IMG/VR virus record: IMGVR_UViG_3300013233_000299
Span: 1-29,390 of that record
Direction: 5' to 3' (one strand)
Source: a virus
Length of the DNA stretch: 29,390 bases
A program made the position numbers and the translations under genes. The stretch's first letter is position 1; every line of letters starts with the position of its first letter. This document shows positions 24,724 through 29,243 of the stretch, piece after piece. A model generated the notes under the pieces. The model was not told the DNA's origin, did no database searches, and saw only the letters and a list, made by a program, of their open reading frames with translations.

Positions 24724-25794
24724 ATGGCAAGGCTCGCAAAACCACATCGAACCAGCAAAGGCTGTTGGCGATTTCGCTTCAAGGGAAAACAGTATCTTGC
24801 CCCCACTCGGCAGGAGATTTATGCCAAGTTTCATCGGGTGCTGGCCAAAGAGGGCAGGCTACAGGCGGGCGTGCCGGCCAGCTTGGCCGGGGCGGTAGAT
24901 CGCTGGCTCGACGAGTTCGAGACCACCGACAATATCAACCGACTCAAGGATTTTATAAAGTTCGGCGCAAGCCTGCCCTTGGCTGAAATCGACAGCAAGA
25001 CGCTGACCACATACCACCGCCGCCTCGTACGTCGCAAGTTGGCTCGCAAGACGATCATAGATCGCGTCTCGCTTGCCCGTCGCGTACTTGTTTGGGCACA
25101 TGGGCTTGGCTGGATTACCGAGATTCCGCCCATGCCAAAGATGAAGCGGCCCGTGAAAGTTGCTCGCGACATTCATGCGGACGCCCTGGCCAAACTCTTC
25201 GGCGAGATGCCGAAGCGTGCTGGTCGCTTGGCCAGGTTTATTGTGTACACGGGATGCAGGCCATCAGAAGCGTGCGGATTGACCTGGCGAATGATTGATA
25301 ACAATCGCAGAGTCGCCGTACTGAGCAAGCACAAGACTGATGCACGAGGTAAGTCGCGCACGATATACTTGACCGATCCTGCTGTCGAGATTTTGAAAAA
25401 CATCAAGAACAAGACTGGCTATGTATTTGTCAGCAGGCTGGGGAGGCCGTACACGGTTGCAGGGTTGCGATCGATTATGCGGCACGCTTGCGACCGAATA
25501 CGGGCAACAAACAAAACATTCCAAACGTTCACGCCGTACCAGCTACGGCATACGTTCGCACAGCTTGCGAGCGAGCAAATACCGGAGGAAGTGCTTAGCA
25601 AGATCATGGGGCATTCTGATGTTGCCACAACACGCATATATTATCAGATCAAGAATCGTCGGGCATCGGATGCAGCGGCATCCCTAGTCTTGCCGCGACT
25701 GCCTCGTATTCTTGACGCATCTGGTTCTGGTCAACTGGGCGAGAAGCACAAGTGCCGCACACATCTTCATCAAGCCAATCGGCAGGTATCCTGA
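24724..25794 (+). CDS. int: Tyrosine integrase
   Basis: 356 residues. Arm-binding and core-binding parts occupy residues 1-145; the catalytic domain follows. Active-site residues: Arg179 (YTGCRPSEACGL), a Lys near 202-204 (SKHKTDARGK), Arg275 in PYQLRHTFAQ (a Tyr replaces the more common first His), His297 in IMGHSDVATTRIYY and nucleophile Tyr306. It catalyses site-specific recombination between the phage att core and a host tRNA-Pro gene. ATG at 24724 with weak GGAA; the promoter has an overlapping palindrome. The last ~50 residues lie outside the conserved fold and overlap the convergent xis-like gene. Confidence 0.95.
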   Translation: MARLAKPHRTSKGCWRFRFKGKQYLAPTRQEIYAKFHRVLAKEGRLQAGVPASLAGAVDRWLDEFETTDNINRLKDFIKFGASLPLAEIDSKTLTTYHRRLVRRKLARKTIIDRVSLARRVLVWAHGLGWITEIPPMPKMKRPVKVARDIHADALAKLFGEMPKRAGRLARFIVYTGCRPSEACGLTWRMIDNNRRVAVLSKHKTDARGKSRTIYLTDPAVEILKNIKNKTGYVFVSRLGRPYTVAGLRSIMRHACDRIRATNKTFQTFTPYQLRHTFAQLASEQIPEEVLSKIMGHSDVATTRIYYQIKNRRASDAAASLVLPRLPRILDASGSGQLGEKHKCRTHLHQANRQVS

Positions 25795-25909
25795 CCGAGC
25801 CGTGCCACTTAATGGCGCGCAGATGTCCATTAGCAATACGCTTACGTATTGTTTTTGCACTGAGGCTCATGACCTCTGCGACTTGCTTGACTGTGAGGTA
25901 CTTACGCAT
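25649..25909 (-). CDS. Excisionase-like helix-turn-helix protein
   Basis: 86 residues from ATG 25909 (a GTG at 25972 would add 21). Residues 4-45 (YLTVKQVAEVMSLSAKTIRK ... IPADWL) are the AlpA/excisionase-family helix-turn-helix. The tail is of low conservation. It faces int tail-to-tail, with a 146-bp antisense overlap. Directing integrase towards excision is the expected role; a regulator of early genes is the alternative. There is no good Shine-Dalgarno before the ATG; TATAAA lies right in front, so it may be leaderless or start at the GTG. Confidence 0.75.
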   Translation of the reverse strand: MRKYLTVKQVAEVMSLSAKTIRKRIANGHLRAIKWHGSVRIPADWLDEDVCGTCASRPVDQNQMRQEYEAVAARLGMPLHPMPDDS

Positions 25910-26025: not shown

Positions 26026-26244
26026 TTATTTGTCCACCCCCAAGCTGTCTAGGAAGTCATTCAATGCTCTTAAAAGCCTAGAATTATCGCGGATTGTCTT
26101 GTACGCCTCATCCCACCCATCAAGCCAAGGTTTTCGGCATTGATCGCAGACAAACGAATCAATCCCCCCCTGGCCGCAGTATCTGCAAGTGCCGAAAACG
26201 TCTTCCTGTGATTCGCATCGAGAATCTTTGCTACAACTCATCAT
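26026..26244 (-). CDS. Zinc-finger small protein
   Basis: 72 residues. C20-x2-C23 and C33-x2-C36 (CRYCGQG ... FVCDQCRKPW) form a zinc ribbon or knuckle; the remainder is an acidic helical tail (DEAYKTIRDNSRLLRALNDFL). Overlaps the preceding Zn-ribbon gene by 4 bp (ATGA). Last gene of the small Cys-rich cluster. Unknown function. Confidence 0.75.
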   Translation of the reverse strand: MMSCSKDSRCESQEDVFGTCRYCGQGGIDSFVCDQCRKPWLDGWDEAYKTIRDNSRLLRALNDFLDSLGVDK

Positions 26245-26444
26245 TCTTCCTCGTTCTCGTTCGGGAACGCAGCTTCAGCGATTTCCCGGACCGTGTAAGG
26301 GTATCCGCATTTGGGACACGGATCGTACACGTGCGGCAATGGGGTCTTGCGTCTAAAGATTGCATGGCATGTGCATACCCTTGAGACGCGATTGATTACT
26401 TTTTGTAGAGCGTCAAGCGGATCAAGCCGTTCAGGATATTTCAT
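26241..26444 (-). CDS. Zinc-ribbon protein, tandem paralogue 3
   Basis: 67 residues from ATG 26444 (the longer frame runs over the upstream gene). MKYPERLDPLDALQKVINR, then C24-x-C26 and C43-x2-C46 in DPCPKCGYPYTVREIAEA. About 60% identical to the 26431-26667 product by eye. Four Cys should bind one zinc. It overlaps its paralogue by 14 bp. No known family. Confidence 0.75.
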   Translation of the reverse strand: MKYPERLDPLDALQKVINRVSRVCTCHAIFRRKTPLPHVYDPCPKCGYPYTVREIAEAAFPNENEEE

Positions 26445-26667
26445 TGCAATCCTCCTCTCCGCAATGCTCGCCCCCACTTTCTTTCGGGCGCACTGCTTCA
26501 GCAATCTCGATAATTGTGTAGGGATACCCACAATGGGGGCACGGGTCTTTTCTTGATGGCGGCGAATCCTTTCCGCCAAAAACTGCACGGCACCAGCACG
26601 AGCTTGAGGCCCGATTGATAGCTTTCTTTATCGCGTCAAGCGGCTCAAGTCGTTCAGGATACTTCAT
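26431..26667 (-). CDS. Zinc-ribbon protein, tandem paralogue 2
   Basis: 78 residues: MKYPERLEPLDAIKKAINR, C24-x-C26, C43-x2-C46 in DPCPHCGYPYTIIEIAEA, and an acidic Cys-bearing tail (GGEHCGEEDCNEIS). Close paralogue of the next gene downstream and more distant from the one at 26899. Its start overlaps the upstream gene by 14 bp. Probably a small DNA- or protein-binding factor; function unknown. Confidence 0.78.
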   Translation of the reverse strand: MKYPERLEPLDAIKKAINRASSSCWCRAVFGGKDSPPSRKDPCPHCGYPYTIIEIAEAVRPKESGGEHCGEEDCNEIS

Positions 26668-26902
26668 CGCTGCCTCCTTCTGGCCCGTCTACATCCTTTC
26701 GCAGCTTGTCAATTGCTCGCAGTATATGCTCCGAGCACTTGTTCTTTATCGCAGCAGAAAGGGCCGCACTAATGGCGCAATTCCACGCTCGCCTGGATTG
26801 GGTTAGAGCCTCAGTCTCAATACGAAATCTGCATTCGTCGCACACGAGTTGGTAGCACCCATGGCATTTCCGCTTCGGGTTGTTGAATCCTGATTCGTTC
26901 AC
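26654..26902 (-). CDS. Cys-rich small protein inside the zinc-ribbon array
   Basis: 82 residues. C13-x2-C16 and C21-x2-C24 (KCHGCYQLVCDECRFR) form a tight zinc-binding knot, followed by a helical part (WNCAISAALSAAIKNKCSEHILRAI). Different from the CGYPY paralogues that flank it. ATGA overlap with the upstream gene. Unknown function. Confidence 0.72.
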   Translation of the reverse strand: MNESGFNNPKRKCHGCYQLVCDECRFRIETEALTQSRRAWNCAISAALSAAIKNKCSEHILRAIDKLRKDVDGPEGGSDEVS

Positions 26903-27144
26903 TCCTCCACTCCTCTAGCCGCCCACGCGATCTCCAGGATGCTGTACGGATACCCGCACCTCCTGCACGGCTTGTCGCGAGGAGGTAGCGGAACATCACC
27001 ACGCCTGAGCAGGCGACCAGAATCGCACGCCTTACAGCGTCCTGCGCAGCGATGTACGATCATATCGACAGCTTCGTTCTCGGTGAGATGCGGCAACTGA
27101 TCGCTCAGTGTTGACCAAAAGAACTCTTTCAGGTCGCTGTGCAT
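26899..27144 (-). CDS. Zinc-ribbon protein, tandem paralogue 1
   Basis: 81 residues from ATG 27144, with GAGGAG upstream; the frame open to 27306 is not the real start. A helical N-terminus (DLKEFFWSTLSDQLPHL) then C33, C37, C40 and C60-x2-C63 in DKPCRRCGYPYSILEIAWA. The CGYPY(T/S)I-EIA box ties it to paralogues 2 and 3. Unknown function. Confidence 0.75.
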   Translation of the reverse strand: MHSDLKEFFWSTLSDQLPHLTENEAVDMIVHRCAGRCKACDSGRLLRRGDVPLPPRDKPCRRCGYPYSILEIAWAARGVEE

Positions 27145-27163
27145 TTCTTCACTCCTCAAGCAT

Positions 27164-27256
27164 TCACTTGCCAAACAAAGCCAAGGCCATAAAGGACAAA
27201 TAGAACAGCAGGAAGATTCCGCTCCACCAGCAAAATCTCTTATCCAATTGATGCAT
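27164..27256 (-). CDS. 30-residue membrane peptide
   Basis: ATG 27256 to TGA 27164, with AGGAG six bases upstream. Sequence: MHQLDKRFCWWSGIFLLFYL then SFMALALFGK, a single membrane helix. It heads the zinc-ribbon cluster and follows a leader hairpin (27275-27323). Strong ribosome site and spacing like the next gene support it. Confidence 0.6.
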   Translation of the reverse strand: MHQLDKRFCWWSGIFLLFYLSFMALALFGK

Positions 27257-27361: not shown

Positions 27362-27994
27362 TCAAGCCAACTTCTCTTCGATGGCCGTAATTCTCAGGTC
27401 TAGGTCTTGCAGGATGCCCTGTATCTCTGTTGACGTGCTGGCCTGTTGCGAACCCTGCTCTGGTGCCACTTTCACAGCGTATTCGCCAAGCATCAGCTTT
27501 AGGGGCCAGAAGCCTACAGCAGCTTTCGTTTCTCCAGGTATGCCCGGCCAATTGGGGAGCGAATCAAGAATCGACAGCTTGGCCACCCCTGGCTTGATAG
27601 CCGAGAACTGAAACACTTCCAGCAAAGTGCCATCTGTAGGCACTGCTCGATTGGTACCGGGTGCATCGTTCCAAGACCACAGGCCTTGGCCGTTCTTTGG
27701 CGGGGCTGGTGCGTTCTCGTTGATTCCTGGTGCGTTGTTTGCCACGTTGCGGAATGGGGCAAACGCTGAAGCGTACTGGTCCCAAGGTGGATCGAGGTTT
27801 CTGTTCGGCGTACCGATGAACTCAAGAACGTCATTATCCCATTCAAAAAGCATCTGCATGATTGTGATATCCGTCCTGGTTGGATCACCGTATGCCCAGA
27901 GTTCAACATCTACACGATCTCCAACCAATACAGCTTCTGGCCCATGCCATTCCAGGCGAATTGATTTATCGCCCACATTGTCCCATCTACCCAT
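27362..27994 (-). CDS. Cohesin-like domain protein
   Basis: 210 residues from ATG 27994 with AAAGGA 9 bp before (TTG 28000 is the alternative). Residues about 12-165 have the cohesin-type beta-sandwich pattern: AVLVGDRVDVELWAYGD, MQMLFEWDNDVLEFIGTP, and a closing strand VFQFSAIKPGVAKLSIL. The C-terminus (about 185-210) is a coiled coil (STEIQGILQDLDLRITAIEEKL), suggesting oligomers. There is no signal peptide, so it is cytoplasmic or virion-borne. Cohesin-like domains are frequent in planctomycete proteins. In an early block this is unusual. The family call is moderate. Confidence 0.6.
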   Translation of the reverse strand: MGRWDNVGDKSIRLEWHGPEAVLVGDRVDVELWAYGDPTRTDITIMQMLFEWDNDVLEFIGTPNRNLDPPWDQYASAFAPFRNVANNAPGINENAPAPPKNGQGLWSWNDAPGTNRAVPTDGTLLEVFQFSAIKPGVAKLSILDSLPNWPGIPGETKAAVGFWPLKLMLGEYAVKVAPEQGSQQASTSTEIQGILQDLDLRITAIEEKLA

Positions 27995-28031
27995 GATCAA
28001 GTCCTTTCTGTTATTGTTTCAGCGCGACGCT

Positions 28032-28045
28032 GCACGCCTGCTCAG
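28032..28045. repeat. 14-bp direct repeat, right copy
   Basis: GCACGCCTGCTCAG again. It includes the stop codon of the PAPS-reductase-like gene and is followed on the minus strand by a hairpin CAGCG/CGCTG. The two copies bracket the cohesin-like gene. Confidence 0.8.
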
Positions 28046-28794
28046 CTTTCTTTGCTAGCTAGTTCGTCCTTTATCGCCAGCAGTTCACAAAAGATTCCAC
28101 ACTCCTCAACGATTGGCGGCTTACTCCGTCCACGAGACGGCTCAAGTTCGTCCAGGAAAACCCCCTTGATGCAAGAATGCCCAACCCGCCTTTCGAGAGC
28201 GGCTCGTGCCTGAAATACCTTGGGGAAATCGATGCGGATTTGATTCCAGTAGGCCATCCCGCCCTTAACGCAGCCAACACAGTTATTGTTTTGATAGCCA
28301 AGGTCATACATAGCTGGCCTCTTGATCCCGCTCGCCCTGAGCAGTTGGTGAGCGTCCTCCTTGTCCATGTTTTCATCGATAAGGGGGAATCGGTGAAGCG
28401 TGTTGCTCATCCCGTCTTCGATCCGTTCTGCTCTATCCAGCTCAGTGCGGTCAAGGCCCCAAACATAGGTCAAGTTACAATCGCGATGATCAAGTTCCCA
28501 TTGCTGGCGGGTTCGCCTTTTTAGAAGTCGAGTGCAGGCTGCGCCTCCAGGGCCGTTGACGTAGCCCTTTCCGCCCGCGGCTAGAATTGCTCGTTCAACA
28601 TTACGATACTTAGGCCTCACTACCTCGATCTTTTTCCCAAACCACTTTTCGCAATCACCCACAAATCGCAACGTGTCCTCGTGCTGGTCGTCGATGTGGA
28701 GGTAGATGATCTTATCCACGTCTTGGATCGCTAACTTGGTGGCTACGGCGCTGGATACTCCAGCACTAAACCAAGACACACATAAAGCATTCAT
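28042..28794 (-). CDS. PAPS reductase-like PP-loop ATP pyrophosphatase
   Basis: 250 residues. The N-terminus has a PP-loop variant (SWFSAGVSSAVATK; SAGVSS at 10-15), then IIYLHIDDQHEDTLRFVGD, typical of the adenine nucleotide alpha hydrolase fold. GGAACTRLLKR (Cys87) and the paired cysteines C172-x2-C175 (NNNCVGCVKGG) with C232/C236 match phage 'phosphoadenosine phosphosulfate reductase family' proteins; a metal or iron-sulfur site is possible. Relatives include DndC-type enzymes, so nucleotide or DNA modification is conceivable, but not shown. Overlaps the upstream gene by 4 bp. Confidence 0.8.
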   Translation of the reverse strand: MNALCVSWFSAGVSSAVATKLAIQDVDKIIYLHIDDQHEDTLRFVGDCEKWFGKKIEVVRPKYRNVERAILAAGGKGYVNGPGGAACTRLLKRRTRQQWELDHRDCNLTYVWGLDRTELDRAERIEDGMSNTLHRFPLIDENMDKEDAHQLLRASGIKRPAMYDLGYQNNNCVGCVKGGMAYWNQIRIDFPKVFQARAALERRVGHSCIKGVFLDELEPSRGRSKPPIVEECGIFCELLAIKDELASKES

Positions 28795-29243
28795 TGTGCC
28801 CCTCCGCTCAGTTCGTTCTCCAGCCTAACTGTCTCGGCTCGCATGGCCTTAGCCGCCAGTTCCTCAGTTCGCCGAACCATGCGAACGATTGCCGTGTGGT
28901 CCACGTTGAGCAGCCCGGCGATGAGCGGGTAGCTGATTGGCGGGTAGTTGCTCTCGCCATCCGGGCGAATGTGGGGAAACGGGAATCGGCAGTTCACCCA
29001 GTAGCCACCCATCTTTGCGTCTTTGTCTTTGATCCACACCTGCTGCACTTTGCGCTCGACAAACACCGTGGCCCGCAACTGAGCCACCAACCAGCGTCGG
29101 GCTGCGGCCACGTTGCGCGGTCTGGCTTTGCCGCCGCTGAGGATCTGGCCGGCGTAGCAATTGAATTGCCGACCAGCGGCAGCGAGGAGTTGGTCAAAAT
29201 ATGCAGCCATCGGCTTGCTGTGGGCTAGCTTGTTTTGGCTCAT
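28791..29243 (-). CDS. DnaA-domain-IV-like DNA-binding protein
   Basis: 150 residues. The helices RPRNVAAARRWLVAQLR and PISYPLIAGLLNVDHTAIVRM (HTH about 104-124) follow the DnaA C-terminal domain pattern (S...IG..fg.dHtTV). There is no AAA+ domain. It may bind DnaA-box-like or own sites and act in replication or early control. ATG 29243 has AGGAG 6 bp upstream. Confidence 0.72.
   Translation of the reverse strand: MSQNKLAHSKPMAAYFDQLLAAAGRQFNCYAGQILSGGKARPRNVAAARRWLVAQLRATVFVERKVQQVWIKDKDAKMGGYWVNCRFPFPHIRPDGESNYPPISYPLIAGLLNVDHTAIVRMVRRTEELAAKAMRAETVRLENELSGGAQ

Follow-up and report, generated by a model that had tools for sequence, protein, structure and literature searches.

Six small genes on the minus strand

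The window analyzed here is the whole virus record IMGVR_UViG_3300013233_000299, which has 29,390 bases, is classed as linear, and carries a temperate tailed phage. Between positions 26026 and 27256, it contains an array of six small frames, all on the minus strand. In gene order, these are:

27164..27256, minus strand: a 30-amino-acid peptide with one hydrophobic stretch (WSGIFLLFYLSFMALALFG), supported by a ribosome site and by being the best of the six frames
26899..27144, minus strand: copy 1, a CGYPY paralog of 81 amino acids with cysteines at positions 33, 37, 40, 60, and 63 (E = 2.5e-8 from copy 2)
26654..26902, minus strand: an 82-amino-acid cysteine protein with CxxC-x4-CxxC and a GTG start, supported by a ribosome-site check and codon usage
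26431..26667, minus strand: copy 2, a CGYPY paralog of 78 amino acids, supported by paralogy, codon usage, and the junction sequence
26241..26444, minus strand: copy 3, a CGYPY paralog of 67 amino acids, supported by paralogy
26026..26244, minus strand: a 72-amino-acid cysteine protein with CxxCG-x8-CxxC and a helix-like tail, supported by codon usage

A sequence-only reading of this DNA had described six packed, overlapping genes. All six frames are present and packed, and five of them overlap, but the 30-amino-acid gene is separated from copy 1 by a gap of 19 nt. From copy 1 on, the successive overlaps are 4, 14, 14, and 4 nt: the shorter ones join copy 1 to the 82-amino-acid gene and copy 3 to the 72-amino-acid gene, and the longer ones join the 82-amino-acid gene to copy 2 and copy 2 to copy 3. 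Nearly all of the starts in the array are preceded by a ribosome site that resembles AGGAG or GGAGG. Because of these overlaps, and because there is a ribosome site ahead of most starts, the genes are probably translationally coupled.

The six frames are real genes. Under the codon usage of this phage, each is the top-scoring one of the six possible frames, with z scores of 2.2–2.8 relative to shuffles. The weakest of the six is the 30-amino-acid gene. Its product is a putative single-span membrane peptide, with a mean Kyte-Doolittle score of 1.87 across the 19 residues of the hydrophobic stretch.

At both of the 14-nt overlaps, the stop of the upstream gene sits within the duplicated start (ATGAARTATCCTGA / ATGAARTATCCTGAACG). 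The two upstream genes terminate in DEVS and NEIS, which are the duplicated start ATGAARTATCCTGAACG in another frame. Because the start of the copy behind supplies the stop of the upstream gene, these junctions are a direct trace, or scar, of duplication. Also, copy 2 has an extra C-terminal tail that contains cysteine (GEHCGEEDCNEIS), and this tail is encoded by the leader of copy 3 together with its start.

Three of the genes are paralogs, with purifying selection between two of them

The three CGYPY proteins share the box PCxxCGYPY[ST][IV]xEIA[EW]A. In searches inside the 29,390-base record, copy 2 found copy 3 with E = 1.7e-24 and copy 1 with E = 2.5e-8, and none of 1,000 shuffles attained the pair scores of the three copies. 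These proteins are true paralogs, with a relation far above chance. The E values, the shuffles, and the common start/stop junction all agree with the proposal, made from the sequence alone, that they arose by tandem duplication. The box is common to the three copies much as it was first described, but copy 3 has valine where isoleucine was given (PYTVREIA), and the beginning of the box, given as (D)xPC, is DKPC in copy 1 and DPC in copies 2 and 3.

Copies 2 and 3 are 59–60% identical at the amino acid level, which matches the estimate by eye of about 60%. Between these copies, dN is 0.30 and dS is 1.63 (dN/dS of about 0.19), and identity is 45% at third codon positions versus 74% and 77% at positions 1 and 2. 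Given these values of dS and dN, and because the changes are concentrated at the third codon position, both copies have long been maintained as proteins. Overall, copies 2 and 3 are under purifying selection.

Identical residues are spread unevenly between copies 2 and 3: 16/23 ahead of the first cysteine, 7/18 between the cysteine pairs, and 14/17 in the box. That the most diverged part lies between the cysteine pairs fits with diverging targets, although there are too few residues for proof.

The 82- and 72-amino-acid cysteine proteins are not further copies of the paralogs, and the 82-amino-acid protein has no significant relation to them. The two proteins have weak similarity to each other (18 of 1,000 shuffles attain their score), so they may be distantly related, which is not enough for a claim.

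The cysteine pattern suggests a zinc site

All three copies have CxC or CxxC, then 16–19 residues, and then CxxCG with a short helix-like stretch. In a zinc-ribbon test on two cysteine pairs able to hold one zinc, the pattern was present in all three copies, so the CGYPY proteins are probably zinc-binding. The closest sequence echoes of the copies are ribosomal and polymerase zinc knuckles (eL40, L37, and RPB9), and all of these are weak and insignificant.

We ran AlphaFold2 without metal, using the three copies as the alignment. For copy 3, this gave a pLDDT of 61 and helices at residues 9–19 and 52–59; for copy 1, it gave a pLDDT of 55. Because these models are poor, we base the assignment of zinc binding on the cysteine pattern. 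Comparing the array model to the Protein Data Bank with Foldseek found no useful fold match for models of this quality (pLDDT 55–61). The sequence-only reading had taken the box for a zinc ribbon joined to a helix. The four-cysteine pattern and the helix-like stretch are kept in all of the copies, and the two beta hairpins that a ribbon fold would place around the metal would have to be read from models with just the pLDDT values above.

We also considered a helix-turn-helix reading of TIREIAEA. Copies 1 and 3 stop no more than about 10 residues after the box, which leaves too little sequence for the rest of a helix-turn-helix, so we dismissed it.

The array has no relatives among the sequences searched

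The array genes are best seen as a small family of orphans whose kind, small phage accessory proteins, is familiar. The sequence-only reading knew of no named family for them, and scans of the six proteins against Pfam, PHROG, NCBIfam, and PADLOC, with the Pfam and PHROG scans taken down to E ≤ 5, found no meaningful match either. Among the papers that we found on phages of planctomycetes, small genes in tandem, and zinc ribbons of phages, the relevant ones dealt only with TraR and with accessory genes.

We did not find the array in other phages, whether in the viral contigs, the phage records, or the plasmids that we searched. Viral contigs yielded no relative in single-protein or profile scans. 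Using tblastn, copies 1–3 and both of the other cysteine proteins had no relative in 50,697 phage records, and copy 2 had none in plasmids. Since single-protein scans reach close relatives only, they may miss arrays of moderate divergence in phages outside the sample. The array was also missing from 50 whole records searched by profile, of which nearly all carry related terminases, and it is absent from the phages that have the PAPS-reductase gene (see below) in common. The exact box pattern was absent from the genome contigs searched, and exact and relaxed patterns, searched as degenerate DNA, found nothing beyond isolated CxxCGYPY knuckles. As none of these searches gave a relative, the position of the array is known from this record alone.

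One of the pattern searches had 22 matches, mostly to an HNH/recombination-type protein (PCVRCGYPYSQAAH) or to chance frames, which we rejected. Matches in two other loci (L126 and L127) were unrelated double zinc ribbons.

A relaxed box pattern had a single match, a 131-amino-acid phage protein with two cysteine sites (CPHCGKPFDLKEIA; L115 P0007). It matches phrog_8538, a PHROG of unknown function, at 1.1e-35. Proteins of this type include PANG_00059 from Paenibacillus phage PG1 and gp33 from Pseudomonas phage PAJU2. Their box (CPHCGKPFDLKEIA) resembles that of the array (CPKCGYPYTVREIA), and their N-terminal half has CxC-x15-CxxCG, as in copies 2 and 3, but they are larger (131–151 amino acids) and single-copy. 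Also, phrog_8538 was not listed in the PHROG scan of the six array proteins at E ≤ 5. The array profile aligned to the 131-amino-acid protein across 18 columns with 67% probability, but because this protein was found by searching for the box itself, its likeness was selected. Members of the phrog_8538/1621 group occur in both Paenibacillus and Pseudomonas phages, and PAJU2 gp33 (L117:1956-2759), a 151-amino-acid double zinc ribbon, adjoins a small gene and an integrase.

A second echo is gp55 of Pseudomonas phage KLEP17-4, a Lar-like phage protein. The array profile aligned to it across 28 columns over the box (32% identity, 51% probability), but the similar box of gp55 is joined to a longer C-terminal part. 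As a control, we scored 938 four-cysteine frames from all of the fetched loci with the array profile. Several unrelated knuckles reached 14–19 bits (up to 19.1), compared to 13.3–13.6 bits for the two echoes. Since unrelated knuckles outscore both, the echoes are evidence of a common knuckle-plus-helix style and not of descent.

The array lies beside the integrase of a temperate phage

Using Pfam and PHROG, we identified genes for an HNH endonuclease, the small and large terminase subunits, the portal, and the major head protein, as well as integrase, excisionase-like HTH_17, exonuclease VIII-like, and Sak4-like genes. Near the array are:

24724..25794, plus strand: tyrosine integrase (Pfam Phage_integrase, E = 2.3e-24; phrog_1, E = 2e-51)
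25649..25909, minus strand: excisionase-like HTH_17 protein, directly downstream of the array, with the helix-turn-helix at 25769-25900 (Pfam HTH_17, E = 2.1e-8)
28042..28794, minus strand: PAPS-reductase-like gene, upstream of the array (phrog_424, E = 6.9e-45)

In minus-strand order, the right end of the record has a 150-amino-acid gene, the PAPS-reductase-like gene, a 212-amino-acid orphan, the array, the HTH_17 gene, and the convergent integrase. The late genes begin just past the integrase. At the left end, exonuclease and Sak4-like genes lie opposite a gene that looks by eye like a repressor, and run off the contig.

Several of the neighboring genes have features of their own. The HTH_17 gene and the integrase overlap by about 146 bases at their 3' ends, so that each runs antisense to the other's end. 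The PAPS-reductase-like gene has a weak PADLOC match to SspD of phosphorothioation (E = 1.3e-10), and the nearest phage relative of its product is 52% identical and comes from an unannotated human faecal phage (MT835516). The 212-amino-acid orphan directly upstream of the array (27362-28000, minus strand) had no match in NCBIfam, PHROG, Pfam, or tblastn against phages; by eye, it looks like a cohesin-type beta domain and then a coiled tail. The 150-amino-acid orphan (28791-29243, minus strand) had no match in Pfam or PHROG, and its end (YPLIAGLLNVDHTAIVRMVRR) looks by eye like the signature of DnaA domain IV.

Should the contig be a circle that was broken, its gene order would seem to be that of a lambda-like left arm, running from the recombination genes through small accessory genes to xis and int. 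Because the contig has no overlap between its ends, and the Sak4 frame is truncated, the order across the gap is inferential. From gene order, we also infer that the array is expressed early.

Among the matches listed, the best identity for the terminase was 39% in IMG/VR; in GenBank phages it was 37% (to Heliusvirales-type gut phages), and no relative exceeded 39%. A scan of genome contigs with the integrase gave no match, and its matches in plasmids did not indicate a host. None of the evidence that we tested favors one host phylum, and the planctomycete host that was assumed from the sequence alone is a tentative one.

Possible roles of the array

We tentatively propose that the array's copies are host-directed accessory zinc miniproteins, likeliest to act at the transcription machinery, in the manner of TraR and lambda Orf73 but without membership in their family. 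We favor this proposal while giving it less than an even chance. Orf73 is a 73-amino-acid protein of the TraR family, with an N-terminal helix, a C4 zinc site, and a C-terminal helix; like TraR, it binds RNA polymerase, represses ribosomal promoters, and increases phage yield (PMC9239242).

The copies are similar in size to Orf73 and P2 Orf82 (67–81 versus 73–74 amino acids), and their predicted order of N-terminal helix, C4 site, and C-terminal helix is that of the TraR family. The spacing between the cysteine pairs is 16–19 residues in the copies versus 17 in TraR-type proteins. In lambda, the order is exo, small genes, xis, and int, with Orf73 in the interval between exo and xis, and the array has a similar place if the ends of the contig are joined across the gap. 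However, the CG knuckle is at the second cysteine pair in the copies and at the first pair in the TraR family, and the array has its protein in three copies.

We rejected membership in the TraR/DksA family on three grounds. First, none of the six array proteins matched zf-dskA_traR (PF01258) at E ≤ 5, while the positive controls Orf73 and P2 Orf82 matched at 1.6e-8 and 3e-11. Second, profile comparison (hhalign) of the array to Orf73 and P2 Orf82 gave a probability of 0.8%. Third, the DxxDxA motif at the tip of TraR's N-terminal helix (as defined in PMC9239242) is absent from the three copies, which have TENEAVD (copy 1), EPLDAIKK (copy 2), or DPLDALQK (copy 3) instead; DPLDAL in copy 3 and EPLDAI in copy 2 come nearest to it. 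The failure of membership leaves a TraR-like mode of action standing, as a minority possibility. RNA polymerase is our guess for the likeliest single target, drawn from the similarities in size, in order of elements, and in position.

Under this proposal, the array would be an accessory cassette of a temperate tailed phage, and its coupled genes would lie close to the distal end of an operon that is early and of the left-arm type. The CGYPY proteins would each consist of an N-terminal helix, a four-cysteine zinc site, and a short helix at the C terminus, and would bind host proteins during lytic growth, so that the host is diverted to phage production. Two duplications would have given three copies in which the flanks stay constant and the stretch between the cysteine pairs diverges, which would allow different targets for each copy. 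The host takeover that was suggested from the sequence alone is a reasonable guess, not a result. A stronger version of the proposal would be a new zinc-miniprotein family, with constant helices and CGYPY knuckle and a varied inter-cysteine stretch, whose coupled array delivers inhibitors of different host proteins at a fixed ratio. We think this version is quite unlikely.

It is also conceivable, though doubtful, that these zinc proteins switch on late or modification genes by binding to nucleic acid or to RNA polymerase. P2 Ogr acts in late transcription, and Mu Com acts in the translation of mom. Both are zinc proteins about as small as the copies (72 and 62 amino acids), and Mu is, like this phage, temperate, with Com having CxxC. 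P2 Ogr and P4 Delta are small zinc proteins near int, and in Delta the unit is used in tandem. More specifically, P2 ogr adjoins attP and int, much as the array adjoins the xis-like gene and int, and this phage's late genes begin just past int. But the cysteine pattern of Ogr and Delta differs. Neither Ogr_Delta (PF04606) nor Zn_ribbon_Com (PF10122) matched any of the six array proteins, while real Ogr and Com proteins matched at 1.1e-21 and 2.7e-9. The hhalign probabilities for the array profile were 0.4% for Ogr and 3.8% for Com, and three copies of one regulator would be unusual.

Alternatively, each copy might inhibit a different host defence (restriction or other), like Lar-type alleviation, with duplication following an arms race. 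Accessory genes of variable phage regions have been found to block defences and so render bacteria sensitive (PMC12373910). In the KLEP17-4 protein, the similar box (CPECGAAHTLADVAKAM) precedes a weak Lar-like PHROG stretch (E = 0.0015), but its likeness to the array, at 13.3 bits, is below the 19.1 bits that unrelated zinc-knuckle frames reached with the same scoring. PADLOC found no match among the array proteins, and neither did Lar_restr_allev (PF14354) at E ≤ 5, in a run without a Lar positive control. Also, the low overall dN/dS speaks against an arms race. We consider counter-defence unlikely.

Another idea is that these are accessory recombination or replication factors, with small zinc ribbons that assist the Sak4/exonuclease system or a part of the replisome, similar to NinG of the lambda nin region. 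The exonuclease VIII-like and Sak4-like genes are in the same presumed operon, but the gap in the contig separates them from the array, and the named recombination accessory families had no sequence match, which makes this idea improbable. Finally, it is very unlikely that the duplicates are kept by drift or dosage, with no copy-specific role and with an unconstrained linker as the middle stretch: the low conservation between the cysteine pairs and the lack of an overall excess of amino-acid over silent change would be compatible with this, but a dS of 1.63 indicates that both copies have long been held as proteins.

For now, the array is an orphan in sequence, though its kind is familiar, and orthologous arrays or a defined host target for one copy would add to its interest. 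Small zinc proteins from phage early operons can strike central host machinery, as TraR and Orf73 do at RNA polymerase. Three paralogs in one genome would allow us to ask how such a fold gets retargeted.
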